NCBI GenBank assembly: GCA_958295745.1
Contig: OY282370.1
Span: 2,516,548 to 2,580,547, forward strand
Length of the DNA stretch: 64,000 nucleotides
Reading direction: 5' to 3'
Source: an uncultured Acidimicrobiia bacterium
GTDB taxonomy: Bacteria > Actinomycetota > Acidimicrobiia > Spongiisociales > Spongiisociaceae
Each line of letters begins with the position of its first letter. Position 1 is the first letter of the stretch. This document shows positions 14,554 to 62,167 of the stretch, piece by piece. Both the position numbers and the translations under genes were made by a program. A model generated the notes under the pieces. That model was not told the DNA's origin. It did no database searches and was given only the letters and a program-made list of their open reading frames with translations.

Positions 14554-14622
14554 CCCTTTTAGTTATACTTTTGTCATCTAAATACAAACTGTTTGGAGCT
14601 TTGCTGTGGAAATCGCGTTTTT
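14554..14622 (+). repeat. direct repeat, copy B (orphan regulator leader)
   Basis: Second copy of the segment at 12687-12756, including the arm AGTTATACTTTTG, the spacer ATACAAACTGTTTGGAG and a GTG-started reading frame that opens like the regulator (VEIAFL) and then stops at TAG. It abuts the 3' end of the secreted-protein gene on the other strand. It is a leftover of a duplicated or truncated regulator copy. Confidence 0.7.
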
Positions 14623-40614: not shown

Positions 40615-42255
40615 TCATCGGCGTGGGCGTTTTCTCACGGCGCCGGGTCTCGGATGCGGTACCAGCACGCCGGGGTTGAGTATCCCCTTCGGGTCGAGAT
40701 GCGCCTTGGCGCGGGCCAGGACATCGCCGAACAGGGGCGGCCGTTGTTTCTCGTACCACGGCTGGTGGTCGCGTCCGACGGCGTGGTGGTGGGTGATCGT
40801 GCCGCCGTTGTCGATGACCGCATCCGAGACCATGGCCTTGATGGTGCGCCACTGGTCGAGCATTCCGTCGGGGTCGGCGGCGCAGTGGAAGGCGAAATAG
40901 GGGGCGGGGCCGTCCGGATAGGCGTGGCTGAACCGGCATGAGACGGCGCCTTCCCGGCCGGTCGCTTCGCGGATCGCCTCCCGCGCGGCTTCCCGCACCG
41001 CGTGGTAGAAGGCCTCGAACCGGTCCCAGGTGATGGCCGACTCGAAGGTGTCCGAGATAATGCCGAGGGGCGTGAGCACCTCCCGGTTGTAGGGCATCTT
41101 GATGAAGGCCTCCCGCCAGGCCCCGACCGTTCCTTTCAGATGGGCGCCGGGGTCGGTCCGCCAGTCGGCGTCGGGCAATCCTCCGTGATCTAGACAGATC
41201 TGCTCGGCGCGGTCCATCCAGGCGTCCACCGGATGGTCGGACGACTCGAACGACACCACCATCAGGGTGAACGAACCGTCCCCGGCGCCGTTCACCGCCA
41301 GCTCCACCCCGTCGACTATGCGGACGTTGGCGGGAAACAGGCCGGCCTGGGATACCTCCCGCACCGCCCCGGCGGCTTGGAGGAAATCCGGGAAGCGGAA
41401 CCCGGCCGCCGCCTTGTGCCTTACCCTTCCCTGGACGCGCACCCAGGCCTCGGTGATGACGCCCAAGGCACCCTCCGAGCCGATCAGGAGCCGGTCCGGG
41501 CTGGGGCCGGCGCCGGAACCGGGCAGCCGCCGTGATTCCATCACCCCGGCGGGGGTCACGCATCTCACGCTCTCCACCAAGTCGTCGATGTGGGTGTAGA
41601 GGGTGGCGAAGTGGCCGCCGGAGCGGGTGGCGATCCAACCGCCCAGGGTCGAGTGCTGGAAGGACTGGGGGAAGTGGCGGAGCGTTACCCCGCGGGGCTT
41701 GAGGGCGGCCTCGAGCTCGGGACCCCGCGCCCCGCCCTGGATACGGGCCGCCCTGGACTCGGTGTCCACTTCGAGCACCCGGTTCATGCGGCTCATGTCC
41801 AGGGTGACGACGCCGTTGTATTCCCCGCCGATGTCGGGTGTGACACCTCCCACCACCGACGAGCCGCCGCCGTAGGGAACCAAAGCCGCCCTAGCCTCGC
41901 CCGCCCATTGCATCAACGCCGCTATATCGGCCTCGCCCCGCGGATAGGCCACCACATCAGGCGCATGGGCGAAATCCCCGGCGAAGATGCGGATCGAGTC
42001 GGGCTGCGACTGACCGAAGCTGTGCAATACCCGCTCGTAGGGTTCCTGCGTACACATGGAGGCCAGAGCGGCCGGCGGATCCAGCCGAGGCGGCGGCAGC
42101 GGTATCTCGTCGATGGGCGGCGGACTGCTGTCTCCGGTGTGATGGCCGTGGATGCCGAAGCCGCGGGAGAGGGTCGAGAGCAGAGCCTCCCGGTCGCGAG
42201 CCGGCAGCCCATCCCCCTCGCACCCCCACCCCCAGTACTTGAGCCGCTTCGCCAT
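40615..42255 (-). CDS. FAD-linked oxidase (AGPS/glycolate-oxidase GlcD-like)
   Basis: 546 aa. The PCMH-type FAD domain has VVAYPRGEADIAALMQWAGE, VPYGGGSSVVGGV and STLGGWIATRSGG; the cap domain ends with THHHAVGRDH, which matches the His-rich motif of alkyldihydroxyacetonephosphate synthase, and DPKGILNPGVL closes the protein as in 2-hydroxyacid oxidases. The N-terminus MAKRLKYWGWG also fits the AGPS-like group. It would oxidise a hydroxy acid or act in ether-lipid-like chemistry; which one is open. It is convergent with the importer operon. Confidence 0.92.
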   Translation of the reverse strand: MAKRLKYWGWGCEGDGLPARDREALLSTLSRGFGIHGHHTGDSSPPPIDEIPLPPPRLDPPAALASMCTQEPYERVLHSFGQSQPDSIRIFAGDFAHAPDVVAYPRGEADIAALMQWAGEARAALVPYGGGSSVVGGVTPDIGGEYNGVVTLDMSRMNRVLEVDTESRAARIQGGARGPELEAALKPRGVTLRHFPQSFQHSTLGGWIATRSGGHFATLYTHIDDLVESVRCVTPAGVMESRRLPGSGAGPSPDRLLIGSEGALGVITEAWVRVQGRVRHKAAAGFRFPDFLQAAGAVREVSQAGLFPANVRIVDGVELAVNGAGDGSFTLMVVSFESSDHPVDAWMDRAEQICLDHGGLPDADWRTDPGAHLKGTVGAWREAFIKMPYNREVLTPLGIISDTFESAITWDRFEAFYHAVREAAREAIREATGREGAVSCRFSHAYPDGPAPYFAFHCAADPDGMLDQWRTIKAMVSDAVIDNGGTITHHHAVGRDHQPWYEKQRPPLFGDVLARAKAHLDPKGILNPGVLVPHPRPGAVRKRPRR

Positions 42256-46290: not shown

Positions 46291-47247
46291 ATGAGAATTT
46301 TCCCGGCGGTCAAGGGGGCGGCGGTACCGAAGGTTTATGTCTCGAACCGGATGATATGGACGGTGGTGCTGATCATCAGCTTCGGGTGGGGATCCGCGCC
46401 GGTGGCGGTGCGGATCGCCCTCCGCGAGGGGTTTGGGCCGTTGACCATCGCCGCTGCTACCTCGATGATCGCTGCGGTGGCGGTCTTCCTGCTCATAGCC
46501 GGGCGCCGGCAGGGGATTCCGGTCGGGAGGATCGAGCTGCGTATGGGCGCGGTGCTGTCGATCATCAGCGTTCTGGTGCCCTTCTATACCCGGAACCTGG
46601 CCCTCGACAACGCCTCGGCCGGGTTCGTGACCCTCGTCAGCGCATTGGTGCCCCTGGTTACGGCGGTGACGGCGCATTTCGCGCTGACCGACGAGCCTCT
46701 GAAGCTCTTCACCGTGGCCGGTCTGCTGCTGGGTCTCGGCGGGGTGGCGGTGCTGTTGCTCGGGGGCGACTCCGGGATCGCCGAGGGCGGCAATCCGCCT
46801 TTGGCCGGAGTGTTCGGGCTGATCAGCGTGCTGTCGATGTCCGCCGCCGCCGTGTACGCCAAGCGCTACGCCGGCGGGTACTCGGCGCTCGGCGTGACCG
46901 GCGTCCAGCTCGTGATCGGTTCCGCGATCCTGACCCTCCTTGCGCTGCCGGTCGAAGGGCTTCCCGCCGACCCTTCCATGACGGGCTGGATCAGCCTGCT
47001 GTACGCGGGGGTGCTGGGGACGTTCGTTACGCTGGCGCTCTACTACTTCCTGATCCGCCATGTCACAGTCACCTACTCCACGATCGTCGGCTACATCCTC
47101 CCGTTCATCGCCGTGGTCGCCGGCGTGTTGGTACTGGACGAGCAGGTGCAGCCGGGAATCGTGATCGGGGGCGTCCTGGTACTGCTGGGGGTGGTGGTGA
47201 CCGACCTGATCCGCATCCGCGAATCCCGCCGCCGGACGCCGGGTTAG
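46291..47247 (+). CDS. EamA/DMT-family transporter, copy 1
   Basis: 318 aa, about ten membrane helices in two EamA repeats (first ending near LLLGLGGVAVLLLGGDSG, second near AVVAGVLVLDEQVQPGIVIG). Drug/metabolite transporters of this type move small metabolites across the inner membrane. ATG follows TAGGAAGCGATC. A closely related gene lies at 47423 and precedes the reductase genes, so one or both may import or export a substrate or product of that system. A strong terminator lies just downstream. Confidence 0.92.
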   Translation: MRIFPAVKGAAVPKVYVSNRMIWTVVLIISFGWGSAPVAVRIALREGFGPLTIAAATSMIAAVAVFLLIAGRRQGIPVGRIELRMGAVLSIISVLVPFYTRNLALDNASAGFVTLVSALVPLVTAVTAHFALTDEPLKLFTVAGLLLGLGGVAVLLLGGDSGIAEGGNPPLAGVFGLISVLSMSAAAVYAKRYAGGYSALGVTGVQLVIGSAILTLLALPVEGLPADPSMTGWISLLYAGVLGTFVTLALYYFLIRHVTVTYSTIVGYILPFIAVVAGVLVLDEQVQPGIVIGGVLVLLGVVVTDLIRIRESRRRTPG

Positions 47248-47352: not shown

Positions 47353-47422
47353 GGATGCCGGAGGGGCGTTCATCGGGTGCGGCGGTCTGCTGTAGCCTGT
47401 GGCGGACGGTGGGCGTTCGGCG

Positions 47423-48472
47423 ATGGGAGATGTCGATGACGCGTGGCGGGCGGGCGTGAAGTATCCGGTGCTCAGAGGGTCTACGGGGTTGAACGTCGAC
47501 CTCTCGAACCGGATGATCTGGACGGTCATGCTGGTCATCAGCCTGGCTTGGGGCACGTCGCCGGTGGCGGTGCGGATCGCCCTCCGCGAAGGGTTCGGGC
47601 CGCTCACCATCGCCGCCGGCTCCTCGATCATCTCCGGGGCGGCGGTCTTCGCCCTCATGGCGGCGGTCAGCAAGAGAATACGGATCCGGCGGATCGAGCT
47701 GCGCATCGGCTTGGTGCTGTCGGTACTCAGCGTGCTGGTGCCGTTCTATGCCCGGAATATGGCGCTGGACAACGCCTCGGCCGGGTTCGTGGCGCTCATC
47801 AGCGCGCTGATTCCCCTGGTCACGGCCGTGATGGCTCATTTCGCATTGGCCGCCGAACGCCTGAAGCTCTCCGTCATCGCCGGTCTGCTGCTGGGCCTCG
47901 GCGGGGTGGCCGTGCTTCTGCTGGGGGGAGATTCGGGCATCGCCGAGGGCGGCGCCCCGCCTGTGGCCGGGATGTTCGGGATGCTCAGCGTGCTGGGGGT
48001 GTCCGCCGCCGCCGTCTACGCCAAGCGCTACGCCGGGCAGTATTCGGTGCTGGCGGTCACCGGCGTTCAGCTAGCCGTGGGAGGGGTTGCCTTGACGCTC
48101 CTGGCGCTGGCCGCCGAAGAGCTTCCCGCCGGCCCCTCGACGACCGGGGTGCTCGGCCTGTTCTACGCAGGTTCGGTGGGGACGTTCGTTCCGCTGGCGC
48201 TCTACTACATGCTGATCCGCTACGTAACCGTCACCTACTCCACCATCATCGGCTACATCATCCCGTTCGTGGCGGTGTTCACCGGGGTCGCAGTGCTGGA
48301 CGAGCAGCTGCAGCCGGGGATCGTGATCGGGGGCCTGTTGGTGTTGCTGGGAGTGGTGGTGACCGATCTGGTCCGCATACGCGACTCCCGCCGGCAGAGT
48401 ACCCGGCAGGCCGCAGAAAGGGACGCGGCAGAACACCGGGCAGGGCCGCCGACAGGACGCGGGACGGGGTGA
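47423..48472 (+). CDS. EamA/DMT-family transporter, copy 2
   Basis: 349 aa from ATG 47423; a GTG at 47399 is in the same frame. About ten helices, with the same blocks as copy 1 (NRMIWTVMLVISLAWGTSPV, DNASAGFVALISALIPLVTA, VLDEQLQPGIVIGGLLVLLG) and a longer polar tail. Its stop overlaps a GTG (48469) in the frame of the grdE-like gene and lies 9 bp before that gene's ATG. The transporter is therefore probably co-transcribed with the reductase and may carry its substrate. This is inference from position. Confidence 0.92.
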   Translation: MGDVDDAWRAGVKYPVLRGSTGLNVDLSNRMIWTVMLVISLAWGTSPVAVRIALREGFGPLTIAAGSSIISGAAVFALMAAVSKRIRIRRIELRIGLVLSVLSVLVPFYARNMALDNASAGFVALISALIPLVTAVMAHFALAAERLKLSVIAGLLLGLGGVAVLLLGGDSGIAEGGAPPVAGMFGMLSVLGVSAAAVYAKRYAGQYSVLAVTGVQLAVGGVALTLLALAAEELPAGPSTTGVLGLFYAGSVGTFVPLALYYMLIRYVTVTYSTIIGYIIPFVAVFTGVAVLDEQLQPGIVIGGLLVLLGVVVTDLVRIRDSRRQSTRQAAERDAAEHRAGPPTGRGTG

Positions 48473-48480
48473 TCCGGGGC

Positions 48481-49833
48481 ATGCGGCGACCTTTGCGGCT
48501 GGAGGTGCGGTCCATTCCCATCGAGGATCTGCGGCTCGGCAGGACCACCTCGGTTTCCGGCCGGACCCTTACCGTCTCGCCCCGGGAGATAGCCGATATG
48601 GTGCTCGAAGACGCCCGCATCGCCGATGTAAAGGTGGCGGCCGCCTGCCCGGGCGAGGACGTGCGCATAGTCCATTGTCTCGACGCCGTGGAACCGCGCA
48701 CCAAACCGGGGGAGGGGGCGGTATTCCCCGGCTTCCTCGGCGGGATGGACACGGTGGGCAGCGGCCTGACCTTCCGCATGGACGGGGTGAGCGTGCTGGT
48801 CTCGAGCCGCTTTCCCGGGCCCTTCTCGGGGCTGCTCCAGGCCAGGGAGGCGGTGGTGGACATGTCCGGCCCCGCCGCCGTCTACAGCCCGATGTCCCGG
48901 GTCCGCAACGTGGTGCTGGCCTGCACCCCGAACCCCGATATCGAGAACGACGACTACGACGACGCCGTCCGGCGGGCCGCGCTCCGGGCGGCCCATCACA
49001 TCGCCGAGCAGGCGGTCCGTTCCCTGCCGACGGCGCCGACGGCAACAGGACCGGAGGCCGCCGGGTCTGCTTCCCGCGCCGCATCCAACCCCTCGGCCGC
49101 CCTCGACACGACCGTCTTCGACTTCTCGGATTCCGATCCCGGCCTGCCCAACGTGGTCTACTTCTACCAGCTCCAGGGCCAGGGCAGCATGGCCGACACC
49201 TACCTGTACGGGCGCACCATCCACAACCTGGTGCCCACCCTCATCCATCCGAACGAGGTGATCGACGGCGCCATAGTGAGCGGGGTCCACGTATACGCCC
49301 TCTACAAGAACCCCACCTACATGCATCAGAACAACCCCATCATCTGGGAGCTCCGGGCCCGCCACGGACAGTCCCTCAACTTCGCCGGGGTGATCATCAA
49401 CCGGGGCCACAACTACACCCAGGAGGACAAGGAGCGCTCCTCGCAGTGGGCGGCCAAGCTGGCCCGCATGCTGGACGCCGACGGGGCGGTGCTCACAGCC
49501 GAGGGGGGCGGCAACTCGGCCATCGACCTCATGCTCGCCTGCCGGTACATGGAGCAGGCCGGGATCAGGACCGTGGTCCTCTCCGGGGAGGGGCCGGGCG
49601 CCGACGGGTACGGCTTCCCCCTCTTCTACACGGTGCCCGAGGCAGACGCCGTCGTCAGCGTCGGCTCCGAGGACGAGGTCGTGTCCATGCCCGAGGCGGG
49701 GCGGGTGATCGGGGGCGGACGGCTGCTGGACGGGGAGACCCCCTCCCGCGGCCCGTTCGATCTGAAGATGTACTACCAGTACTGCGGGGTCAACCAGCTG
49801 GGAGGCAACGTGCTCGCCGGGAGGGCCTTCTGA
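48481..49833 (+). CDS. grdE: GrdE-like subunit of glycine/sarcosine/betaine reductase component B
   Basis: 450 aa. The N-terminal LRLEVRSIPIEDLRLG and the blocks PNVVYFYQLQGQGSMADTYL, VPTLIHPNEVIDGAIVSG, KNPTYMHQNNPIIWELRARH and NFAGVIINRGHNYTQEDKER match the GrdE/GrdG family, which forms the substrate-activating part of component B. In characterised members, as I recall them, a cysteine just after DGAIVSG is processed to a pyruvoyl group; here this stretch reads VHVYALY and has no Cys. A linker rich in Ala/Thr/Pro (about residues 180-215) is an insertion. The start is ATG 48481 (GTG 48469 possible), and it overlaps grdB as TGATG. Confidence 0.87.
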   Translation: MRRPLRLEVRSIPIEDLRLGRTTSVSGRTLTVSPREIADMVLEDARIADVKVAAACPGEDVRIVHCLDAVEPRTKPGEGAVFPGFLGGMDTVGSGLTFRMDGVSVLVSSRFPGPFSGLLQAREAVVDMSGPAAVYSPMSRVRNVVLACTPNPDIENDDYDDAVRRAALRAAHHIAEQAVRSLPTAPTATGPEAAGSASRAASNPSAALDTTVFDFSDSDPGLPNVVYFYQLQGQGSMADTYLYGRTIHNLVPTLIHPNEVIDGAIVSGVHVYALYKNPTYMHQNNPIIWELRARHGQSLNFAGVIINRGHNYTQEDKERSSQWAAKLARMLDADGAVLTAEGGGNSAIDLMLACRYMEQAGIRTVVLSGEGPGADGYGFPLFYTVPEADAVVSVGSEDEVVSMPEAGRVIGGGRLLDGETPSRGPFDLKMYYQYCGVNQLGGNVLAGRAF

Positions 49834-51143
49834 TGATCCGCGTGGTCCACTACCTCAACCAGTTCTTCGGGGGGATCGGCGGGGAGGACAAGGCGGGCGC
49901 CCCCCTGCAGGTGCACCGCGGGGCGGTCGGCTCGGGCCGGGCCCTCGCCGCCCTGCTCGAAGGCGAGGCCGAGATCGTGCGGACGCTGGTGTGCGGCGAC
50001 AACGCCTTCCACGCCGACCCCGAGGGGAACCTGGACGCCGCCCTCGCCGCCGTAGCCGAGGCCGGGGCGGACCTGGTGCTGGCCGGGCCGGCCTTCAACG
50101 CCGGACGTTACGGGCTGGCCTGCGGGGCGGTGGGGGCCGGGGCTGGTGAACGGCTGGGGATCCCGGCGGTCACCGGGCTCTATACCGAGGCGCCGGCGGT
50201 GGATGTGTACCGCAGCCGGGTGGTCATGGCGGCGGCCGCCGACTCGGCCGCCGGGATGCGCCCCGCCCTCGAAGGGATGGTGCGGATCGGGCTGCGCCTA
50301 GCCCGCGGCGGAGGCCTGCTGCCTGCGGAGGAGGACGGGCGCATCCCCATGGGATACCGGGCCGGCTGGGCGGTGCGCACCCCCGCCGCCGTCAGGGCGC
50401 TCGACATGCTGGCCGCCAAGCTGTCCGGCGAACCCTACACCAGCGAGATAGGCCTCCCGGCCCGGGCCGAACCGGCGCCCCCGGCCCCCGCGGTGGCCGA
50501 TCTGTCCGGCGCCGTGGTGGCCGCGGTCACCGAAGGCGGGCTGGTGCCCGAAGGCAACCCGGACCGCATCGAGTCCTCCGGCGCCACCCGCTGGGCCCGG
50601 TACCCGGTTTCCATGTTCGAAGAGGGCGGGGGGCCGGCCTTCCGGTCCGTCCACGCCGGCTACGACACACGGTGGGTGGACGCCGACCCCAACCGGCTGG
50701 TCCCGATCGACGCCCTGCGTTCCCTGGAGAAGGAGGGCGTCATCGGTGAGCTCCACGATCACGTATACGTGACCACCGGCACCGGCACCGCCGTCACCGA
50801 GGCCGAGCGGATGGGCGGTGAGATGGCCCGCCGGCTCCTGGCCGACGGGGTGCAGGCGGTGATCGCCACCAGCACCTGAGGGACGGGGACGCGTTGCGGG
50901 GCGACGCTATGCAAGATGATCGAGAAGCACGGGATACCCGCCGTCCTGCTCACCGCCATGACCTCGATGGCGCTGGCGGCCGGCGCCAACCGCATCCGCT
51001 CGTCGGGGCTGATCCCCCATCCGGTGGGAGACCCGGACCGCGGCCCCGAAGAGGAGGCCGCCTGGCGGCGTGATCAGGTGGGCAAGGCCCTGGCGGCGGC
51101 CGCCGCTACCATCGACGAAGCACGGATATTCGCCGATTGGTAG
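49833..51143 (+). CDS. grdB: GrdB-like selenoprotein of component B (in-frame UGA = Sec)
   Basis: 436 codons including an internal TGA at 50877-50879 (codon 349), read as selenocysteine. The N-terminus MIRVVHYLNQFFGGIGGEDK is typical of GrdB/GrdF/GrdH. The frame crosses TGA as ATST-U-GTGTRCGATLCKMIE and continues through GIPAVLLTAMTSMALAAGAN and IPHPVGDP to the TAG at 51141, matching the conserved STUGTCTRCGAT region and the usual family length of about 436. Sec attacks the substrate C-N bond during reduction. The residue at Sec+3 is Gly instead of the usual Cys; Sec+6 is Cys. A hairpin at 50891-50907 is a SECIS candidate. Ordinary gene finders will split this gene. Confidence 0.9.
50891..50907 (+). 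promoter_or_regulatory. SECIS-like hairpin of grdB
   Basis: GCGTTGC (50891-50897) pairs with GCGACGC (50901-50907), with one G-U pair, around a GGG loop. The loop lies 18 bases after the UGA at 50877-50879, within the distance usual for bacterial SECIS elements that bind SelB. Confidence 0.65.
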
Positions 51144-51189: not shown

Positions 51190-52620
51190 ATGATTCCGCA
51201 GCCCGCCGTCCTCCACACCTCCTACGCGCTGGCCCACGCCCCCGGCCTGGTCCGTTACGGGTCGAAACCGGTGCGGGAGGCGGAAGGCGACCCCTCCCTC
51301 CCGGCCCGTCTGGACGGGGCGCTCCGCCCTTGGGGGGAGGTGATGGCCTACCCGCCCAACCAGGTCTTCATCGGCAACCTGGCCCCCGACGGACTCTCCT
51401 CCATCCCCCGGCCCTGGTACGAGAACCGGATGGAGGCGGCCCGGCCCGACGGTCCTTTCGGGCGCATGGTCACCCAGGCCGCCCTCTACGGGCTGATGAA
51501 GCTGTGCGACGACTTCGACCTGCTCGCGATAGACGAGCGGCTGGCGGAACAGGCCCGGGCCGAGCTGACCGGATTCGGCCACCGGAGGGGCCGCATCGGA
51601 GGCGCCGCCGCCGACCGAATCGAGGCTCTGATCGAGGAGGGCGGCGGACTGCCCCTCTACCACGAGGGAAGGGCGGCCGGGTTCATCCGCACCGCCCACC
51701 GGCAGGACGACTCCCTGACCGCCCGGGTGCTGTTGGAGAACCTGGCCGCCAAGGCGACCGCGGCGCTGGCGGTCTCGGACCTGCTGGAGCGGAGCGGCCT
51801 GGCGGCGGAGCGGGTCGACTACCTGATCAACTGCGGGGAGGAGGCGGTCGGGGACCGCTACCAGCGGGGCGGGGGCAGCCTGTCGAAGGCGGTGGGCGAG
51901 GTGGCGGGCTGCGTGAACGCCACCGGGTCGGATGTCAAGGCCTTCTGCGCGGCGCCCGTGCATGCCCTCCTCGCGGCGGGGGCGATGGTTGCGTCCGGCC
52001 TCTACGAGCACGTGGTGGTGCTGGGAGGCGGTTCGCAGGCCAAGCTGGGAATGAAGTTCGGGGCGCACCTGCGCAGCGGGGCGCCGGTCATGGAGGACTG
52101 CCTGGCGTCGATGGCCTTCCTGGTCGGGCCCGGCGAAGGAGGGGGGGATGGGATGCGTATCCGGCTCGACCTGGCCGGCAAGCACCCGATCGGGGCCGGT
52201 TCGTCGGCCAGGGCCGTGTACGAGGCGCTGGTGGTCGAACCCTTGGAGAGGGCCGGCCTCGGAATGACAGACATCGACCGTTACGCGGTCGAGCTCCACA
52301 ACCCGGAGATCACCGTTCCCGGAGGCAGCGGCGACGTGCCCCGGACCAACTACCGCACCCTGGCGGCCATGGCGGTGCTGCGGGGCGAGATACAGAAAGA
52401 GGACATGGACCGGTTCACCGCCGAGCGGGGCATGCCGGGATTCGCCCCCACCCAGGGCCACATCCCGGCCGGGGTCCCCTACCTGGGTCATGCGCAGCGG
52501 GCCATGCGCCTAGGGGAGCTGGAGCGGGCGATGGTCGTCGCCAAGGGCAGCCTGTTCCTGGGCCGGATGACCCAGCTGGTGGACGGCGTATCTTTCGTGG
52601 TGGAACCCGCCGGCCCCTAG
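51190..52620 (+). CDS. grdC: GrdC-like component C beta subunit (thiolase fold)
   Basis: 476 aa. The N-terminus VLHTSYALAHAPGLVRYGSK and PNQVFIGNLAPDGL, followed by the thiolase-like core (VDYLINCGEEAVGDRYQRGG, EVAGCVNATGSDVKAFCAAP, HVVVLGGGSQAKLGMKFG) and ELHNPEITVPGGSGDVP, match component C subunit beta of glycine/sarcosine/betaine reductase. With GrdD it converts the selenium-bound carboxymethyl group into acetyl phosphate. It starts 46 bp after grdB; the frame is open upstream, but that part overlaps grdB. No GrdD-like gene follows in the window. Confidence 0.87.
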   Translation: MIPQPAVLHTSYALAHAPGLVRYGSKPVREAEGDPSLPARLDGALRPWGEVMAYPPNQVFIGNLAPDGLSSIPRPWYENRMEAARPDGPFGRMVTQAALYGLMKLCDDFDLLAIDERLAEQARAELTGFGHRRGRIGGAAADRIEALIEEGGGLPLYHEGRAAGFIRTAHRQDDSLTARVLLENLAAKATAALAVSDLLERSGLAAERVDYLINCGEEAVGDRYQRGGGSLSKAVGEVAGCVNATGSDVKAFCAAPVHALLAAGAMVASGLYEHVVVLGGGSQAKLGMKFGAHLRSGAPVMEDCLASMAFLVGPGEGGGDGMRIRLDLAGKHPIGAGSSARAVYEALVVEPLERAGLGMTDIDRYAVELHNPEITVPGGSGDVPRTNYRTLAAMAVLRGEIQKEDMDRFTAERGMPGFAPTQGHIPAGVPYLGHAQRAMRLGELERAMVVAKGSLFLGRMTQLVDGVSFVVEPAGP

Positions 52621-53113: not shown

Positions 53114-53575
53114 ATGGATCTGAAAGGCAAGCGGGTGGTGGCCATCGGCGAGCGGGAAGGGGCCAACGGGCCCAGCCTCAAGCTGTTGGCCGAGTCGGCC
53201 GGCGCCACCGTGGTGTTCAGCGTCACCCAGTGCTTCGTCTGAACGGCGGGGGGCGCAATGGACCTGGAGGACCAGGCGAACGTCAACCGCTTGGCCGAGA
53301 CTTCCGGCACGGACGGCATGGTCGTTCTGCTGGGTCAGCCGGACGCCAACAGCGCCGGTCTCTTCGCGGAGACGGTGACGAGGGGCGATCCGACCTGGGC
53401 GGGTCCATTGGCCGGGGTCCCGTTGGGACTCCCTGTATATCACGTACTGGAACCTGAGATAAAAGCCCAGATGGACGGTGATCTCTACGACGAACACGTC
53501 GGGCTCATGGAGCTGTCGGCGGACGTGGACGAGATCATCAAATGGGTGGCCTTCTACAGGGAAGGGGACTCCTGA
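53114..53575 (+). CDS. grdA: GrdA selenoprotein (in-frame UGA = Sec)
   Basis: 153 codons including TGA at 53240-53242 (codon 43). Read as selenocysteine, the protein is MDLKGKRVVAIGEREGANGP ... TQCFV-U-TAGGAMDLEDQ ... FAETVTRGDPTWAGPLAGVP ... YDEHVGLMELSADVDEII, which matches GrdA along its length, including the diagnostic CFVUTAAGAMDLE motif and the CxxU redox pair. GrdA carries the carboxymethyl group from component B to component C. ATG follows GAAAGGAGGTACGC, a very strong ribosome-binding site. Ordinary reading would give two fragments (126 bp, and a frame from 53258). A hairpin at 53263-53276 is a SECIS candidate. Confidence 0.93.
53263..53276 (+). promoter_or_regulatory. SECIS-like hairpin of grdA
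   Basis: CCTGG (53263-53267) and CCAGG (53272-53276) form a stem around AGGA, 25 bases after the UGA. The short stem with G residues in the loop fits the loose bacterial SECIS consensus. Confidence 0.5.
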
Positions 53576-53928
53576 CGGAGCAGAACAGCCTCATCGAGGG
53601 GCTGAAGGCGGGGAAGTGTACGTCAACCGCTGTTTCTCGTCGGCGTTTGAGGTGAGCCGCACCTCAAACAGGCCAGTGGGCGCGGTGTGAGCGAAGGCCC
53701 GGACCATCTACGAGTTCACCTGACCCAGGAGTCGGCGGGCTGGCCGGAGGAGTCTTCCCGATCTCCGCGTTGTACGCCGTTGCCTCAGAAGAGAGGAGCG
53801 GCAGATCCGAAGCGGTCAACCTCAATCTCCTTCTCTGTACTTGACCATTTTAATATACGGGCGGCTGTTTAGACTCACCGGATTGAAGGTGACATTACTA
53901 TCTAGCCATCTGTTGGTTCTAGGTGTTA
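53576..53928. other. gap downstream of grdA; grdD absent
   Basis: No gene is supported here. A perfect 10-bp inverted repeat, GTTTGAGGTG/CACCTCAAAC (53645-53654 and 53660-53669), lies 70 bp after the grdA stop and may end its transcript, although no U-run follows. From about 53.83 kb the composition turns A+T-rich, marking the left edge of the next island. No GrdD-like coding sequence is seen. Confidence 0.5.
53645..53669 (+). terminator. 10-bp perfect hairpin after grdA
   Basis: GTTTGAGGTG and CACCTCAAAC surround a 5-base loop (AGCCG). Terminator-like position, but no U-run. Confidence 0.5.
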
Positions 53929-55296
53929 TTATATGACTGTCCAGTTTGGAGCGTATGTATTTTTTCTGAGGTCAGTTGTCATCACTAATTGACCAGTTCC
54001 AAATTTAGGTTGGAGTTCTTTTCTTTCTTCAAGAGCAATCATTAATTTGTCAACTAAACCCTGCTTGTGCATTTGTGAAGTAAATAGCCCAAGCTTTGGG
54101 TTAAAGTATTCAAACCAATCTTTTAGCCTAGGATATATATTTCCTAATATTTCTTCATAAACACCGTGTAATATGCTAACCCATATATCCGCATCAGGAA
54201 ACCACTTGTCTAAGGAATTTGCTATGCACCATTCCAAGATAAATTCGGATGTATTGATAAAGAGAGACGAGTTTTTTGATAACAGTACGGGATTCTTTAA
54301 GACATCTTGGATAGCATCTTGAATAGCAAAGTTATCGAAATCAAAGCTGAGCCTTCCATAATAATAATTAAAGTCAGATTTTGGACTGAGATATATATTC
54401 AATTTTTCTGAAATATTATCTTTTTTTGTAAGAAATTGTAGGGAGGTTGCCAAAGCCCTTTGCAAAGTGTTATCTATATAAATTTCTCCTATAATACTAC
54501 GTATTAATGTGATATACTCTTGGAAGGACTGAGGAGGAAATAATTGGTGATGTTTTCTATCCAAGGGGTGCAGTGGATATATATCAAGGAGGTCTGTAAT
54601 TAAACTCCATGCTATCTTTTCTTTAAGGTTTTGGTCAATTAAAGAATACACTGGTCTAAAGCTTTCGGCCAGCGAACCTGAATAAGTGTTGTAACTAATT
54701 TTACCAATAGCCTCTTTTAGGTATTTGATGTCCTTTTCAACCACAAGTTCACAAAACCTATTCCAACTATCCACTCCCAAATATATCATACTTTTACTTG
54801 TATCGACACAATCTATTCTTATTTGCTCAATATTTCCCCCACTATGTAATATATCAGCTACAGCTAAAGTGACCCCAAACTGCATAGCTAGTGAGCCACA
54901 GGCAAAGTCAACTATATATAGATTTTTCCCTATATTTATATCTTCCTTATTTAGCATCAAATTTATTGAGTTATAGGCCATGTTTATTTGCCTTGGTTGG
55001 TACCAGAGATAATAGCAAAGAGCTACCCATTTATTATCAAAATCAGGCATCCTTTGGCCTTTGAGAAGGTTCAACTGGTCAAAGGCGTATTCAACTTTCC
55101 TTGTTATATCAGGGGTAGATAGTCTATTGGATAGTTCATCAAAATAGCTTTTCCCTGTTTCGCAAATAACTTTATCAAATAAAGAGGCTATTACATGTCC
55201 GTTATCCTTCGTCCAAGGAGTAATTTGAGATGAAGGGATATCTGCTACGTTCTTAACTACTGTTGACTTATCGTTTGTAAGATCATCATTCTTCAT
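53929..55296 (-). CDS. A+T-rich methyltransferase-like protein of unknown function, long copy
   Basis: 455 aa, strongly A+T-rich. Around residues 90-150 it has WVALCYYLWYQPRQINMAYN and LYIVDFACGSLAMQFGV; the latter resembles a SAM-binding motif I in a Rossmann fold, similar in outline to Rsm22-like proteins, but no catalytic motif is clear. An N-terminal VICETGKSYFDELS block is shared with the protein encoded at 57013. GGGAG precedes the ATG. With that paralogue it flanks a radical SAM and an antitoxin-like gene. I cannot assign a function; the composition suggests transfer from a low-G+C donor. Confidence 0.75.
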   Translation of the reverse strand: MKNDDLTNDKSTVVKNVADIPSSQITPWTKDNGHVIASLFDKVICETGKSYFDELSNRLSTPDITRKVEYAFDQLNLLKGQRMPDFDNKWVALCYYLWYQPRQINMAYNSINLMLNKEDINIGKNLYIVDFACGSLAMQFGVTLAVADILHSGGNIEQIRIDCVDTSKSMIYLGVDSWNRFCELVVEKDIKYLKEAIGKISYNTYSGSLAESFRPVYSLIDQNLKEKIAWSLITDLLDIYPLHPLDRKHHQLFPPQSFQEYITLIRSIIGEIYIDNTLQRALATSLQFLTKKDNISEKLNIYLSPKSDFNYYYGRLSFDFDNFAIQDAIQDVLKNPVLLSKNSSLFINTSEFILEWCIANSLDKWFPDADIWVSILHGVYEEILGNIYPRLKDWFEYFNPKLGLFTSQMHKQGLVDKLMIALEERKELQPKFGTGQLVMTTDLRKNTYAPNWTVI

Positions 55297-55464
55297 ATTC
55301 GTACTCCCTTTTCTGATGTATTGTCCTCTTCCCAGGCCCGAAGCTCTCAGTTGGTATCATAAAGATCATCTAAAGGAAGTCTCATGACCCTTCATCATCT
55401 AAGGTTCCATGAGTTGTTGCTAGGTTGCTCTGATATCAAACCACTGTATGTGGTGATCCAAAGT

Positions 55465-55812
55465 TCACCGTCTGGATATATATCCATGATTCTTCCTCGG
55501 CATGGTCATGTTCTTACCTAACATGATACCTCCGATCACCTCTGACAAAGGACGCACCCTGCCCTGTCTGCTGTCTTCCAGACCCTTCAGAATGTCCTCG
55601 CGCAGTTTGGGGTCGGACACTAGTTCCAAGGTGGCAAAGATAGACTCCTCGGTCTGACGTCGGTGCGCCTGCAATATCACAGTTCCGTTTTGGGTGACAG
55701 CCACGCTACCGTGCTCGGCGATCAGGTCGGTGAGTATTCTCCGGCTGGTGATATCTTCGAATTCGATCGAGGCCTGCACAGCCCTTCCTGGGATCGGGAC
55801 GATATCCACCAT
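55465..55812 (-). CDS. possible Phd/YefM-like antitoxin
   Basis: 115 aa from the ATG at 55812, which follows GAGG by 5 bp; an in-frame upstream start at 55962 would add 50 basic, poorly supported residues. The segment ITSRRILTDLIAEHGSVAVT followed by QNGTVILQA resembles the Phd/YefM antitoxin fold, and LEDSRQGRVRPLSEVI resembles the tail of such proteins. No toxin gene is adjacent, so it may be an orphan antitoxin or a DNA-binding regulator. G+C content is closer to the host than that of the flanking methyltransferase-like genes. Confidence 0.5.
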   Translation of the reverse strand: MVDIVPIPGRAVQASIEFEDITSRRILTDLIAEHGSVAVTQNGTVILQAHRRQTEESIFATLELVSDPKLREDILKGLEDSRQGRVRPLSEVIGGIMLGKNMTMPRKNHGYISRR

Positions 55813-56033
55813 ACCATCCTCGAACCCGCTTTGCCCCCTCTCATTTTCGCGATCTCCGTCCAAACCACCGGCTGCGCGGAGATCCCACCACCGCCGAACT
55901 GCCTTCTTCGACCTGGTAGAACGTGTTCGGCGGCGCGACTCGAGTGAAGGCCCGGATATCATCTACGAGTTACATGACACAAGAGGTCGGTGAGCATCGA
56001 GACCGGATCGGGCGGGCTGTAGAGGTTCTCGGC

Positions 56034-56960
56034 CTACCAGGGCGGTTTGAAGCCTTCCTTGCCTTCGCCCAGGGGCGGCAGGCCATTGTTACGGAGTTTG
56101 TCCTTGAACACTCGGACGAACTGCCGATAGTGATTGAGGTATTCACGGTCGAAGTCCTTGCCGCTGCCTAACTTCTCCGACATCAACTCGAAAGCCTGGG
56201 ATCGGGTTTGTGCTACGAACTTGCCTTTCTTGAAGTGGAAGGGCTGGGCGATGAACTTCCGCACCCCGGTGTCTATCAGGGCATCGGCGAAGGCCTGGTG
56301 ATCCTCGACCAGCAGTAGCGGGGTCATGGTGATGCAGGAGGTGATGCCGGCCTCCTGGACTTTGGTGATGGCTTTCAGCCGGGCCGGGTTGGGCGGGCAG
56401 ATTGGTTCGAAGGTGCGCATGATGTCCGGGTCGTCGGTTGTGACCGTCATGTTGACCTGGACGCGCCCGCCCCGTTCTTCGATCCTCTTGAACAGGTCGA
56501 TGTCGCGTGTGACTAGCTGGCTGCGGGTCTGCACCATCAACTTTGGTTTGTGCCGTTCCGCCATGGTCTCCAGCAGACGTCTAGTCAGCTCCAACTTCCT
56601 CTCGATAGGCTGATAAGGATCGGTGACGCTGCTCATGTAGATGAGTTTGCCATCCAACCATCCAGGCTTGCGCCGTTGTAGTAGTTTTACGGCGTTTTCT
56701 TTAACGACGACCCAGTTACCCCAGTTGTCTACCTGCTCCTTTTTCCGGCTGAAAAAGGCTGCGTAGCAATAGGTACAGCCAAAGGAGCAACCGCTATATG
56801 GATTCAATGTGTAATCGTAATCACCCATGAACCCGGTGGCACGAGTCAATATGTCACTTGTCTCTTTGTATTCAATATCAGCTCGACCATAGCGCTTGAT
56901 CTGGATAAACTGATGCGAGTCATCTATGATTAATGACATCTGATCATTATCTTTGGTCAT
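56034..56960 (-). CDS. radical SAM protein, SPL-like (spore photoproduct lyase family)
   Basis: 308 aa from ATG 56960; a TTG at 56996 is an alternative. The iron-sulfur motif is CSFGCTYCYA (Cx3Cx2C), preceded by LTRATGFMGDYDYTLNPYSG, and followed by IYMSSVTDPYQPIERKLELT and VQTRSQLVTRDIDLF. This layout fits the SPL-like radical SAM group (PA0069/Rv2578c type), whose substrates are mostly unknown. It lies between the two methyltransferase-like paralogues on the same strand, so a modification pathway involving all three is possible, but this is inference. Confidence 0.87.
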   Translation of the reverse strand: MTKDNDQMSLIIDDSHQFIQIKRYGRADIEYKETSDILTRATGFMGDYDYTLNPYSGCSFGCTYCYAAFFSRKKEQVDNWGNWVVVKENAVKLLQRRKPGWLDGKLIYMSSVTDPYQPIERKLELTRRLLETMAERHKPKLMVQTRSQLVTRDIDLFKRIEERGGRVQVNMTVTTDDPDIMRTFEPICPPNPARLKAITKVQEAGITSCITMTPLLLVEDHQAFADALIDTGVRKFIAQPFHFKKGKFVAQTRSQAFELMSEKLGSGKDFDREYLNHYRQFVRVFKDKLRNNGLPPLGEGKEGFKPPW

Positions 56961-57012
56961 TAGCGTCGTCTCTCCGTCCCGGGTTGCTAGAGGCAATTAT
57001 CTTGACTCCAAG

Positions 57013-58059
57013 TTACCCTCGGGTGTGTAGATTGGTTTCCTGCCATCCGCTCTCTGTGATATATTTTATGTAGGGTGCACTATTAGGACTTGATAAATTA
57101 AAGGTGACGTTTTTCCTAAGTAAGGCCTGCTTCTTAATAGGATAGTTTTGGGCCATATTATTCCTTAGTTGGGTAGTTTTTTCAAGTTTATTCGTCCATA
57201 TATTGGGAAATATATCTATAGGCATAGAAGAGGAAAAGGAACTAACAGCCTTTGTCGCTTTATCAACAAGCACTGCTTTAGAGTCTTGTGAACTGAATAA
57301 TCCTAAGTTAGGTAAATATCGGCCATAAGTAGCGAGCATATTCTGGAACTCAATCGTCACCTTATTTATATTTATTTCATAGAGACCATGCAACATAATA
57401 AACCATATATTATGAAACCATATATAATGCTCAATAATGCTCCGTACTTTAAAAGGATTATCCTTGTTACAGAATATATGTAAGGGATGCTTATTTATCA
57501 CTTTTAGGGCTTGCTGTAATTTATTATTTCCGGATATATGATTTGTCAACTGATTATTCCCAATAGAACTCTTGAAATTTCCCCAGCTTATTTCTCCCAA
57601 TTTAGTCATACATGAGCTTTCGTCAACAAAATCTATAATAATATGGTCTACTGTTTCGCCGCGATCTATATAATCGGTTAAAGCTAAAATAAAACCATAC
57701 AGTGTAGCTAGCGAACCACACGCATAATCAACCATATATAAGTTGCCATGAAGGTCTATCTTCCTAGACTGTAGTAAATAGCTAATTGATCTGTAGGCTA
57801 GTTGTATTTGTTTTGGCTGATACCAGAGGAAATAGAAAAGGGCAACCCATTCATTATTATAATCAGGCATCTCTGAACTAGAAAGCCTCATATTTTCAGA
57901 GAGAGCTTTATCAATTTGTTTTCCAATTTGTTCTGGATTTAATCCTTCTGAAAGATATTGGAACTGAGACTGCCCTGTTTCACAGATAACTTGGTCTAAT
58001 ATTAATAAGATTGTATCCTTATTACGCTCGGTCCAGGTCTGTTGATGTACCTCTGTCAT
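57013..58059 (-). CDS. A+T-rich methyltransferase-like protein of unknown function, short copy
   Basis: 348 aa, A+T-rich. It shares VICETGQSQFQYLSEGL, WVALFYFLWYQPKQIQLAYR and LYMVDYACGSLATLYGFIL with the protein encoded at 53929, so both have the same SAM-binding-like core. The C-terminal half is shorter. The start has a strong ribosome-binding site (AAGGAGAAGAC). It is probably the first gene of a minus-strand cluster with the radical SAM gene. Function not recognised. Confidence 0.75.
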   Translation of the reverse strand: MTEVHQQTWTERNKDTILLILDQVICETGQSQFQYLSEGLNPEQIGKQIDKALSENMRLSSSEMPDYNNEWVALFYFLWYQPKQIQLAYRSISYLLQSRKIDLHGNLYMVDYACGSLATLYGFILALTDYIDRGETVDHIIIDFVDESSCMTKLGEISWGNFKSSIGNNQLTNHISGNNKLQQALKVINKHPLHIFCNKDNPFKVRSIIEHYIWFHNIWFIMLHGLYEININKVTIEFQNMLATYGRYLPNLGLFSSQDSKAVLVDKATKAVSSFSSSMPIDIFPNIWTNKLEKTTQLRNNMAQNYPIKKQALLRKNVTFNLSSPNSAPYIKYITESGWQETNLHTRG

Positions 58060-58287
58060 GTCTTCTCCTTGGATCGGTTACTTGTGGTTCTTGTCATTAT
58101 TTCTTCCTGGCATTCTATACACGGTAGTGGTTCTCTGGTGGCGGACTCATGTTACGTCAGGCAAGCGGTATGCCGCAAGGCAGGTATCGGCAGAGATGGG
58201 TTGCCGGTAGGGGAGTGGTAGCCTCTGGCGTTGTTTGGTCGGCAGGGTGCCGACGCCGCTTCGTCAGAGTTCCGTCAGGGAGGGATC

Positions 58288-59307
58288 GTGAGAGCATTGG
58301 TCGTTACCGGGCCCGGGGAGGTGGAGGTTCGGCAGGAGCCGGATCCCGCCCCCGGGGAGGAGCAGGTGCTCGTGGAGATCGCCTCCTGCGGGATCTGCAC
58401 CTTCGAGAGGAGGCTCTTCGCCGGGGTCAAGCCCTGGTATCCGGTTTCGCCCGGTCATGAGTGCGCCGGGGTGGTGGTGGCCGCTGGCGCCGGTGTGGAC
58501 GGGCTCCGAGGGTCGCCCCAGGTGGGGGATCGGGTGACCATCGACCTTCTCACCCGGTGTATGACCTGCGGGCCCTGCCGGCGCGGCAAGACCGGGCTGT
58601 GCGTCAACCGCCAGGGCCGCAAGCTGTCCGACGGCACCGTCGCTTTCGGCGGGTTCACCTCCCTCATCGCCGTCGATGCCAAGTCGGCCCATCAGGTGGG
58701 GGGCGCCCCGATCCAGCACGCCGCCATGGGTGAGCCGATCGCCTGCTGCCTGCACTCCCTGCGGCAGGGCCAGTTCCGCCCCGGCGACCGGGTGGCCATC
58801 ATCGGCGGCGGCCTCATGGGGCGCATCCACATGGCCCTCACCAGGGTGGGCGGGGCATCCAGCATCGGGGTGGTCGATCTGTCCGAGCAGCGCCGCGACG
58901 AGGCCGAAGAGTCGGGGGCCGACTGGGTGGCCGCGCCCGAAGACGCCCTGAAGGTGGGCGGCAAGGCGGACGTGGTGTTCGTCACCGCCATGGGAGGGGT
59001 CGACCTGGCGGTGGAGATGGCCGACCGGGGCGGTGCGGTGGTGCTCTACAGCGCCTTCGCCGAGGAGCTGAAGATATCCATAGGCGCCGACTACTGCCAC
59101 AGGAATGAAGTGGACATCGTGGGCGCCTTCAACCAGGACATAGAGGACTGGCGGCGGGGATCCACCCTCATCCGCTCCGGGGTCATCGCCGACGACCTCG
59201 ACCGGCTCATCACCGCCCGCTACCCCTTCGGACGGGCGGGCGAGGCCCTGTCCCTCGTTACCTCCGAGCCGACCTACCGGGTGTTCGTGGAGAACGCCAC
59301 CGCCTGA
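58288..59307 (+). CDS. zinc-dependent alcohol/polyol dehydrogenase
   Basis: 339 aa. Catalytic zinc residues lie in CGICTFERRLF and GHECAGVV, the structural zinc motif is CMTCGPCRRGKTGLC, and the NAD-binding region is VAIIGGGLMGRIHM. This is the medium-chain dehydrogenase family (threonine/sorbitol dehydrogenase type). GTG 58288 follows AGGGAGGGATC. It overlaps the kinase gene as TGATG and would oxidise a sugar alcohol or related compound in the same pathway. Confidence 0.93.
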   Translation: MRALVVTGPGEVEVRQEPDPAPGEEQVLVEIASCGICTFERRLFAGVKPWYPVSPGHECAGVVVAAGAGVDGLRGSPQVGDRVTIDLLTRCMTCGPCRRGKTGLCVNRQGRKLSDGTVAFGGFTSLIAVDAKSAHQVGGAPIQHAAMGEPIACCLHSLRQGQFRPGDRVAIIGGGLMGRIHMALTRVGGASSIGVVDLSEQRRDEAEESGADWVAAPEDALKVGGKADVVFVTAMGGVDLAVEMADRGGAVVLYSAFAEELKISIGADYCHRNEVDIVGAFNQDIEDWRRGSTLIRSGVIADDLDRLITARYPFGRAGEALSLVTSEPTYRVFVENATA

Positions 59308-60623
59308 TGGAGGTCGTGGCCGGGGTCGATATCGGCAGCAGCGCCGCCCGCGCCATTGCCGTCGACCGAGCCGGGCGGGTGATATCCGCTTCGAGGGCGG
59401 TCTACGAGCCGGTAGATCTCCCGGTCGGCGAGGTGGATCCCGCGATATGGCTGGCGGGTCTGAGCGATGCGTTCCGCCGCCTCGAATGCGGCGCCCCCAT
59501 AGCGCTGGGCATAGGAGGCCAGAGCCCCACCACGGTGGCCGACACGGGGGAGATGGCGCTGACCTTCCGCCATCCCGTCGGGGCCGGACACGACGCCTCG
59601 GGGCAGCATCTGGCCCATGCCGCCCTGCTGTCAGAACGCTACGGCCCGCAGGCCCGCCCCCGGCTCATGTGGGATTACCTGATATCGAAACTGGGCGGCG
59701 CATCCGGGTTCCAGAGCGTCTGGCCGGGGACAGAGGGGATTCCGGGTTTCGGGGACCCGGTCCCGGTCGGTTCCCATGCGGGGGTGACCTCCGGGGAGTA
59801 CGGCCTCCCCCCGGGGATGGCGCTGGCACCCGGTGAAAACGACGCCTCCATGACCGCCTGGGCGGCCGCCATAGACGCGGCGGGACGGGGCTTCGACCCC
59901 GGCGGGAAGACCGGAGGCCTGGGGGCGGCCATCGATGTCGGCGGCGGCCCGGCCCCCGAATACGGGCTGCCCGGCCATGTGCCGGGCGTCTACATCGTGG
60001 GGGGTCCGGTCGCCTCCCACGGCGCGATCATGGACTGGTGGGCCGGGATCACCGGACGGGGCATACCCGATCTGCTCGAGGAGGCCGCCTCTGTCGACCC
60101 GGGTTCGGACGGGGTGATGGTTCTGCCCTTCCTCGAAGGGGAACGGGCGCCCAGGTGGAGGCAGGAGCTTCGGGCCGAGATACTGGGGATCGGCCTCGAC
60201 ACGGGCGTCGGCGCTATAACACGGGCCATACTCGAAGCGACCGCCTACGGGCTGGCCCACATCGCCCGCGGCCTGGCCGAGCAAGGAGTGGAGCTGCACC
60301 GGGTGGTCTGCTGCGGGGGTCCCTCACGCAGCCCTCTGTGGACCTCCATCAAGGCCTCGGTGCTGGGGGTGCCGTTCGATGTACCGGCCTGCCGCGAGAT
60401 GGCGGCGTACGGGGCGGCCCTGACCGCGGGGGCGTCGGTAGGGTGGTGGCCCAGGCCCGGCGAGGGCGCCCCCGGCGATTGGCCAACCCCGCCGGTCACC
60501 ACTTTCGAGCCGGATCCCGGGGCGGCCGCCTTCTACCGGAAGGAGCTGGAGATGTTCATCGCCCTCGGAGACGAGGCGGAGGCCCGGCTGGAGACGGGTA
60601 CGATTCTCTGGCGAAGCCGTTAG
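59307..60623 (+). CDS. FGGY-family carbohydrate kinase
   Basis: 438 aa. The N-terminal VVAGVDIGSSAARAIAVDRA holds the phosphate-1 loop, GIGGQSPTTVADTGEM is the usual substrate-side block, and ATAYGLAHIARGLAEQGVEL with VVCCGGPSRSPLWTSIKASV lie in the C-terminal ATP-binding half, the family signature region. It would phosphorylate a ketose or polyol that the downstream aldolase then splits. Coupled to the dehydrogenase gene by TGATG. Confidence 0.92.
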   Translation: MEVVAGVDIGSSAARAIAVDRAGRVISASRAVYEPVDLPVGEVDPAIWLAGLSDAFRRLECGAPIALGIGGQSPTTVADTGEMALTFRHPVGAGHDASGQHLAHAALLSERYGPQARPRLMWDYLISKLGGASGFQSVWPGTEGIPGFGDPVPVGSHAGVTSGEYGLPPGMALAPGENDASMTAWAAAIDAAGRGFDPGGKTGGLGAAIDVGGGPAPEYGLPGHVPGVYIVGGPVASHGAIMDWWAGITGRGIPDLLEEAASVDPGSDGVMVLPFLEGERAPRWRQELRAEILGIGLDTGVGAITRAILEATAYGLAHIARGLAEQGVELHRVVCCGGPSRSPLWTSIKASVLGVPFDVPACREMAAYGAALTAGASVGWWPRPGEGAPGDWPTPPVTTFEPDPGAAAFYRKELEMFIALGDEAEARLETGTILWRSR

Positions 60624-61854: not shown

Positions 61855-62167
61855 ATCTTTACACCTGCATTGTCTCCAACTTTCGGGGAAAGGTCAACCC
61901 CCATGTTTCGCGTTCTCGCCGGGAGGAACCCGGGGGAGGACGCAGGACGGCGGGCGGTGCAGGCCGACTCGGAACCGAACCGAAACATATAGACGGCCCG
62001 GCAGTCCGGCGGCTAGCCTGGGGAGGTATCTTTGGGTTCGACCGCCGGGCGCTTGGAACACCGAAGGTACGTGCAATAGCTGTTCAAGACGGGGATCCCC
62101 TCCGGCGGTCGGCAGCCGGCGCTAGTACAGGGGCTCGGTCAGGGCTCTGATGGGAGGTACGGAACGG

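Follow-up and report, generated by a model that had tools for sequence, protein, structure and literature searches.

Locus and in-frame UGA

The window analysed here, a stretch of 64,000 nucleotides from an uncultured Acidimicrobiia bacterium, contains an operon of glycine-reductase-type genes in the order grdE-grdB-grdC-grdA. The grdB-type gene carries an in-frame UGA that is almost certainly a selenocysteine (Sec) codon. The features of this operon, including a hairpin that resembles a selenocysteine insertion sequence (SECIS), are as follows:

48481–49833, plus strand: grdE/grdG-like gene, protein B alpha subunit (Pfam Gly_reductase 386.7 bits; start codon picked by eye)
49833–51143, plus strand: grdB-type selenoprotein gene (product P0001), 436 residues with Sec349 (TIGR01918 superfamily 448 bits, cut-off 65.45, passed; Pfam GRDB 407.7 bits)
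50877–50879, plus strand: UGA presumably read as Sec in grdB (one in-frame TGA, as in 21/21 full-length matches)
50891–50907, plus strand: SECIS-like hairpin with a 7-bp stem and the loop GGG (fold, pairing and codon conservation; no Rfam match)
51190–52620, plus strand: grdC-like gene, component C beta (NF040746 581.9 bits, cut-off 450)
53114–53575, plus strand: grdA selenoprotein gene with FVUTAGGAMDL (NF040748 195.9 bits, cut-off 130)
53240–53242, plus strand: UGA presumably read as Sec in grdA

The grdB frame starts at the ATG at 49833, passes the TGA at residue 349 and ends with a TAG at 51143. Read through, it yields a product with the motif STUGTGTRCGAT. The original prediction, made from the sequence alone, had described this continuation beyond the TGA, and its coordinates and product length proved correct. 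It had also warned that a naive reading would give a truncated gene and a 75-residue orphan. The list of open reading frames (ORFs) indeed shows both, one ORF ending at 50879 and a 75-residue ORF at 50916–51143.

We compared the gene with a set of 99 related genomes, the window's own (G000) included. The matches to P0001 listed in this set number 62, and each has exactly one in-frame stop, which is always TGA. Matches of 340 bits or more were regarded as full-length GrdB-type. Since all 21 of these carry a single in-frame TGA, the UGA is not a chance event. In an alignment of 20 of the 21 (G004:C265 was left out), with sequences 44–70% identical to the window protein, the TGA occupies one and the same column in every sequence and the downstream frame is open. 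This column is the STUG position of the TIGR01918 superfamily, so that the proposed placement at the conserved Sec position of GrdB holds; homologues with an ordinary stop and a lost downstream part, which had been named as counter-evidence, were not seen among them. GrdB of the window type is present in 8 of the 99 genomes, and a ninth genome, G053, has a contig that breaks off within grdC. For P0001 and P0003, no sequence relative with a solved structure was found at E ≤ 0.01. Sec in GrdB as such is old knowledge: a passage of the survey PMC5029168 counts 146 organisms with selenoprotein B.

The Sec machinery that the prediction implied elsewhere in the genome was found there. tRNA-Sec (78.9 bits; anticodon tca according to ARAGORN), SelA (424.4 bits) and SelB (332 bits), the last two adjacent at C1:1991686-1994795, and SelD (377.8 bits, G000:C1:842510-843433) all score over their cut-offs, which makes the Sec-decoding trait complete. 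The accompanying view that Sec is uncommon in such a genome fails among the relatives, because SelA and SelD are over cut-off in 84 and 89 of the 99 genomes, respectively. Judging by a single in-frame TGA, SelD itself appears to be encoded by a selenoprotein gene, and the same holds for most relatives listed. The second Sec gene of the window, grdA, lies 2 kb downstream of grdB; GrdA occurs in 20 of the 99 genomes with one TGA in each.

SECIS-like hairpin

The stem of the hairpin is formed by nucleotides 50891–50897 paired with 50901–50907 and starts 11 nt past the TGA. A hairpin at SECIS distance, as originally claimed, is thus present and conserved in its pairing. It has no match to an Rfam SECIS model even at E ≤ 1, which counts against it. 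Rfam SECIS_4 matches the same place in grdB of a Chloroflexota locus (L087) and of four fin-type loci, all described below.

A 24-nt piece containing the hairpin was more stable than 194 of 200 shuffled sequences (z −2.44); a 56-nt stretch did not exceed its shuffles in stability (z +0.57). The corresponding 24-nt pieces gave z −2.87 in L022, −1.13 in L045 and −1.16 in L087. Folding energy is weak support for the hairpin, and conservation is the stronger argument. In 23 aligned sequences (21 distinct), stem pairing is kept in 93.2% of the cells. One pair is UA in 11 sequences, AU in 9 and UG in 1. The AU form is confined to one sequence group and accompanies an amino-acid change from RCGAT to RSGST, so the covariation represents few events. 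Sliding the stem partners by −2 resulted in a similar covariation score with only 53.1% paired.

The codons within the stem are also restricted. Arg is encoded by CGT in 23/23 sequences, a codon that accounts for 5.7% of the 557 Arg codons in 18 window genes. All 11 RSGST sequences use TCT for Ser (4.4% in the same genes), and 11 of the remaining 12 use GCA for Ala (2.9%). Rare codons pinned in this way are expected if the RNA is under selection.

A pseudogene or a sequencing error was rejected because of the conserved UGA together with the conserved frame. An ordinary stop that leaves 87 downstream codons untranslated would agree with the presence of the TGA and with the missing Rfam SECIS match, but it is extremely improbable in view of the UGA and the open downstream frame shared by the 20 aligned sequences, the Sec machinery of the genome and the rare codons pinned in the stem.

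Component assignment and active-site changes

The stop codon of grdE overlaps the start codon of grdB by one base. The grdB product is very probably the beta subunit of a protein-B-type reductase (GrdE-GrdB). It missed the cut-offs of the equivalog profiles for GrdB (TIGR01917, 408.5 bits, cut-off 602.2), GrdF (443.5, cut-off 800) and GrdH (NF040795, 411.5, cut-off 775); likewise GrdG was missed (298.3, cut-off 780). GrdD (NF040747) is over cut-off in none of the 99 genomes, in which only weak partial matches occur. The missed equivalog cut-offs, the missing GrdD and the loss of an Asn-Cys site in GrdE (see below) led us to reject a plain glycine reductase.

Two active-site changes go together. 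Canonical GrdB has UGTCTRC, whereas the window protein has UGTGTRC, in which the first Cys of the CxxC motif after Sec is replaced by Gly; two relatives in the GrdB alignment have Ser instead. A motif survey of 83 named loci (L105 and L119 without a hit; L070–L072 appear to be contigs of three relatives) gave 85 hits with C in 78, G in 6 and S in 1 at residue +3 from Sec. The original prediction had given UGTG in place of UGTC. This difference is not a mere detail, as it goes with a loss in the partner subunit: the window GrdE has SGVHVYAL in place of SGNCVSAC and thus no Asn-Cys, which we take to be the pyruvoyl-forming site. In an alignment of 88 GrdE rows, Asn-Cys is found in 69 of the 71 rows whose GrdB has C, the other two being a betaine reductase operon (L068) and one fragment. 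It is found in 0 of the 15 rows with G or S (in L149 absent by a gap), and two further Asn-Cys rows had no GrdB motif hit.

In two trees the G/S types minus L149 form one group (support 100/99 and 100/98), and the window type and a locus from Anaerolineales (L073, 60–61% identity) form another (100/100). The position of L149 differs between the trees.

The same two losses are described in a passage of PMC10838667 for the fluoroacetate reductase FarEB of Cloacibacillus porcorum, in which FarB lacks CxxC and FarE, like the betaine-type GrdI, lacks two conserved pyruvoyl-forming cysteines. This likeness argues for a FarEB-kind reductase, dehalogenating or otherwise cleaving a C-X bond, that acts on haloacetate or a similar acid. 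Such an assignment is nevertheless improbable: the grdE-like product reaches 124.6 bits with the FarE profile (NF053623, cut-off 675, missed), and a neighbourhood with importer, kinase and aldolase does not fit haloacetate. The far operon contains an antiporter and a radical SAM gene instead, according to the same paper.

Compared with the glycine, sarcosine and betaine reductases (GrdE/G/I with GrdB/F/H, GrdA, GrdC and GrdD), the window system shares homologous GrdE, GrdB, GrdA and GrdC as well as Sec codons at the known positions of GrdB and GrdA. It differs in the missing GrdD, Asn-Cys and first Cys of CxxC, in the missed GrdB, GrdF, GrdH and GrdG cut-offs, and in its genomic background, since a heme-copper oxidase gene is over cut-off in 8/8 window-type genomes tested. 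A GrdEB form that lacks Asn-Cys, CxxC and GrdD and is tied to an aldolase module was not found in print among the openly available papers covered. In a genome survey of an Acidimicrobiia order, possibly not that of the window (PMC12008989), the main text does not mention glycine reductase, betaine, grd or seleno.

Polyol module

The operon is flanked by transporter genes and by a module of genes of the polyol type:

46291–47247, plus strand: EamA-family transporter, copy 1 (Pfam EamA 118.4 bits)
47399–48472, plus strand: EamA-family transporter, copy 2, adjoining grdE (Pfam match; gene order of relatives)
58279–59307, plus strand: Zn alcohol dehydrogenase (ADH; Pfam ADH_N 65 bits; 71% identity to the L048 gene)
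59307–60623, plus strand: FGGY-family kinase (Pfam FGGY_C 95.5 bits; 56% to the L048 gene)
60671–61453, plus strand: DeoC/LacD (DhnA-type) aldolase (71% to the L048 gene, which matches PF01791)
62150–63379, plus strand: BMP/PnrA-like substrate-binding lipoprotein (Pfam Bmp 22.2 bits, below the cut-off of 24.1; 71% to the L048 gene, which passes with 32.7)
63485–64000, plus strand: start of an RbsA-like ATP-binding cassette (ABC) ATPase, truncated at the window end (70% to the L048 gene)

In six relatives (L047–L052) the order is EamA, grdE, grdB, grdC, grdA, aldehyde dehydrogenase (ALDH), Zn-ADH, FGGY kinase, DeoC/LacD aldolase, flavin reductase, VOC and GntR, followed, where the stretches extend far enough, by BMP lipoprotein, RbsA-like ATPase and permease. 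ALDH is part of the cluster in 6/6. EamA adjoins the operon in four (L047, L049, L051 and L052); no EamA gene was detected in L050, and the stretch of L048 does not extend this far. The flavin reductase was not found in L052. The window has EamA twice, grdE-B-C-A, a low-GC stretch, ADH, FGGY kinase, aldolase, BMP lipoprotein and RbsA-like ATPase. The low-GC stretch (53800–58100, 42.7% GC compared with 64.1% for the window) is insert-like and lies between grdA and the ADH gene. It holds two AT-rich minus-strand genes of 455 and 348 residues without Pfam or PADLOC match, which resemble each other by eye in a paralogue-like manner, and a radical SAM gene near spore photoproduct lyase.

The aldolase orthologue is present in 20 of the 99 genomes and GrdA in 20, with both in 19 (G075 was counted by a partial match and G090, with a 42% match, was set aside); the counts are not independent because of the relatedness of these genomes. 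A comparable arrangement was found in another phylum. The Chloroflexota (Anaerolineae) locus L087 contains GrdE, an amine-oxidase-like gene, GrdB, aldolase, ADH, FGGY kinase and a NitT/TauT-type transporter, of which GrdE, GrdB, aldolase, ADH and FGGY kinase show 29–48% identity. Among the loci compared, a search for the aldolase or the FGGY kinase at E ≤ 1e-8 gave no further locus outside the window-type genomes, many of the loci being short. We lean towards the view that the reductase works in the same pathway as the polyol module.

A further reading is an ordinary betaine-reductase-like complex that forms trimethylamine and an acetyl unit by reducing glycine betaine or a related quaternary ammonium acid, with the adjacent sugar genes being separate. 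The partner of the betaine GrdH in L068 also lacks Asn-Cys (SGSFMPCS), in agreement with a passage on GrdI in PMC10838667. In addition, betaine-aldehyde dehydrogenase is the best-scoring match of the cluster ALDH in L048 (481.6 bits, cut-off 668.6), and an MttB-family methyltransferase (381.7 bits) follows the Anaerolineales operon of L073. However, P0001 reaches only 411.5 of the 775 bits set for GrdH, GrdH of L068 keeps the CxxC that the window GrdB has lost, and the scanned genes of the cluster included no recognisable transporter of the BCCT or betaine type. The co-occurrence of aldolase with GrdA across genomes and of aldolase and FGGY kinase with GrdEB in another phylum also speaks against separate sugar genes. 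We consider the betaine reading rather unlikely.

Two side observations concern neighbouring genes. The window encodes at 40615–42255 an FAD-linked oxidase that by eye resembles alkyl-DHAP (dihydroxyacetone phosphate) synthase, and similar genes, again by eye, adjoin the polyol module in L154, L156 and L158. In L073 the MttB-family gene (12821–14554) lies directly after grdE-B-C-A and contains a PYLIS_3 match.

Further selenoprotein genes and candidates

For grdA, the 56 nt from the TGA fold with z −3.10, like stretches in two relatives with z −0.66 and −2.10; this stretch has no Rfam match. A PrdB-like short selenoprotein candidate with VPVUPICHQ (TIGR04483 139.3 bits, cut-off 300) was observed at L046:8700-10010 (G000:C1:1935218-1935814), and distant PrdB-like matches with one TGA listed in the 99 genomes number 41, this candidate included. 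The genome also contains a second, diverged grdE-grdB pair (L045; G000:C1:2110441-2111733, minus strand) with the motif ATUGTGTRSGST. Its neighbours, named by eye, are amidohydrolase-like, BKACE-like, NMT1-like and urease genes; neither grdA nor grdC was found in the L045 stretch. GrdB of this type occurs also in family-mates. In the Chloroflexota genome of L120 (G102), ten matches to P0001 were observed: nine GrdB-type genes with 41–50% identity, of which eight have a single TGA and one has TGA and TAG, and one short, distant match. This number hints at many protein-B substrates.

Relation to the fin neighbourhood

Clostridium scindens converts riboflavin to lumichrome, according to a passage of the preprint PMC12934955. 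Riboflavin induces a neighbourhood, fin, with a RibF-like kinase, a class I aldolase, ADH, ALDH and two homologues of glycine/betaine/sarcosine reductase; F. fissicatena, which is without the two reductase homologues, makes hydroxyethylflavin. In the main text of the preprint, no word begins with selen. A polyol scheme with ribityl-type substrates had been drawn from the window genes before this preprint was found, which we count in its favour.

The window aldolase as query gave 11 matches in 8 of 299 genomes from the family of L098 (uncultured Lachnospiraceae bacterium). Four of the 11 regions, the fin-type loci, hold ALDH, GrdB with UGA, GrdE, ADH and a RibF-like gene; seven do not. With riboflavin kinase profiles, the RibF-like gene of L184 reaches 203.6 (cut-off 295) and 176.9 bits (cut-off 184.35); in the other three loci this gene was named by eye. 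Window-type proteins (GrdB and GrdE from the window, the others from L048) are 32–39% identical to those of L184 and L186. GrdE lacks Asn-Cys in three of the four loci, the three that are readable.

The window and the C. scindens neighbourhood thus have in common a class I aldolase, ADH and GrdE/GrdB homologues, and with ALDH the fin neighbourhood matches the relatives' cluster. The differences lie in the RibF-like kinase of fin as opposed to the FGGY kinase and ABC importer of the window system, in CxxC, which is kept in fin-type GrdB and lost in the window, and in GrdA and GrdC, which are present in the window and were not seen in the stretches of the four fin-type loci. No RibF-like gene was found among the module genes of the window and its relatives that were read or scanned; the FGGY kinase is in its place.

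We take COG1744 to be the BMP family. As riboflavin transporters, a passage of PMC4418817 gives RfuABCD, with RfuA in COG1744, and RibXY of the sulfonate/nitrate/taurine transport family. A flavin is therefore a possible cargo of both importer types, BMP/ABC and NitT/TauT, although these families transport many other compounds.

Proposed mechanism

Based on the gene content we propose the following pathway. GrdEB, together with GrdA and GrdC of the same operon, is likely to release X reductively from X-CH2-COO− derived from a 1-deoxy-1-X-polyol. For synthesis of GrdB, SelB and tRNA-Sec would read the UGA at 50877, aided by the hairpin behind it. The ABC system would import the substrate, ADH would oxidise the polyol and the FGGY kinase would phosphorylate it. 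The aldolase would then cleave the product to DHAP and X-CH2-CHO, and an aldehyde dehydrogenase would yield X-CH2-COO−. In the next step the GrdB selenolate would attack the carbon next to the carboxylate, releasing X-H. The carboxymethyl group would move to Sec43 of GrdA and become an acetyl thioester on component C. GrdD completes acetyl phosphate in the known systems; because no GrdD was found, coenzyme A (CoA), not phosphate, is the probable acceptor of the acetyl group. The loss of Asn-Cys in GrdE makes it probable, by analogy with the betaine and fluoroacetate reductases, that the substrate is not a free primary or secondary amine. The chemistry of GrdB, GrdA and component C is taken from the glycine reductase literature, as reviewed in a passage of PMC10298544.

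As for X, a ribityl-type ring nitrogen such as that of a flavin is a tentative and rather doubtful candidate. Arsenic and sulfur were also considered, with evidence neither for nor against.

Several observations weigh against this pathway or its flavin version, beside the hairpin without Rfam SECIS match. A single clade of window-type, L087 and fin-type GrdB was rejected (approximately unbiased test, p-AU 0.0117), and with it a single origin of the aldolase-linked GrdB types. Because of this rejection and the CxxC kept in fin-type GrdB, a shared function does not follow from ancestry. The chemistry behind the Asn-Cys argument is not settled, since the pyruvoyl group of glycine reductase is called only possible, and never clearly identified, in a passage of PMC10298544. 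At the Rfam threshold, neither the window nor any of the 14 loci scanned (of 20 intended; L045, L049, L051, L153, L158 and L159 were left out) yielded an FMN (flavin mononucleotide) riboswitch.

The gene content of the window genome and its family-mates raises further points. The low-GC stretch occupies the ALDH position of the relatives, and the cluster ALDH has no match over 43% in the window genome (best match 41–42%) or in G001, G003, G004, G007 and G008 (39–43% overall). The relatives' flavin reductase, VOC and GntR genes were not found in the window. In addition, the stretches read of the family-mates L156, L157 and L158 contain the polyol module but no grd gene, that of L154 contains grdA and grdC but no window-type grdEB, and G006 has the aldolase without GrdA, so that the module does not always need window-type GrdEB. 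The L045 grdEB pair may share GrdA and GrdC of the window. Finally, the betaine reading retains some weight through the betaine-aldehyde-dehydrogenase-like ALDH and the MttB gene beside L073.

Biological implications

Genes of this kind can be broken up by automatic annotation, which leaves a truncated gene and an orphan. Most known glycine-reductase-type enzymes come from anaerobes, and a passage of PMC10298544 places bacterial selenoenzymes mostly in anaerobic metabolism. The window type is a Grd form without Asn-Cys, CxxC and GrdD in genomes that also encode heme-copper oxidases. The catabolic module is found again in another phylum and, in a form with a different kinase, in relatives of the Lachnospiraceae.

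The pathway can be extended to a speculative picture, which as a whole we regard as unlikely. Acidimicrobiia and Chloroflexota, some with respiratory oxidases, would possess a selenium-dependent polyol shunt in which ribityl-type side chains, such as those of flavins or deazaflavins, are oxidised, phosphorylated by the FGGY kinase and cut by the aldolase to DHAP and an N-acetaldehyde. The acid derived from the latter would be reductively stripped off the ring nitrogen by GrdEB without Asn-Cys and by GrdA/GrdC, with acetyl-CoA as the direct product. In the gut, fin would represent a second version of this route that uses another kinase, its Grd homologue being the Sec enzyme that makes lumichrome instead of hydroxyethylflavin. 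If this is true, the Grd homologues of the riboflavin-induced fin neighbourhood would have a role, lumichrome formation in the gut would be predicted to depend on selenium, and a Sec enzyme could terminate a sugar-type pathway in acetyl-CoA.

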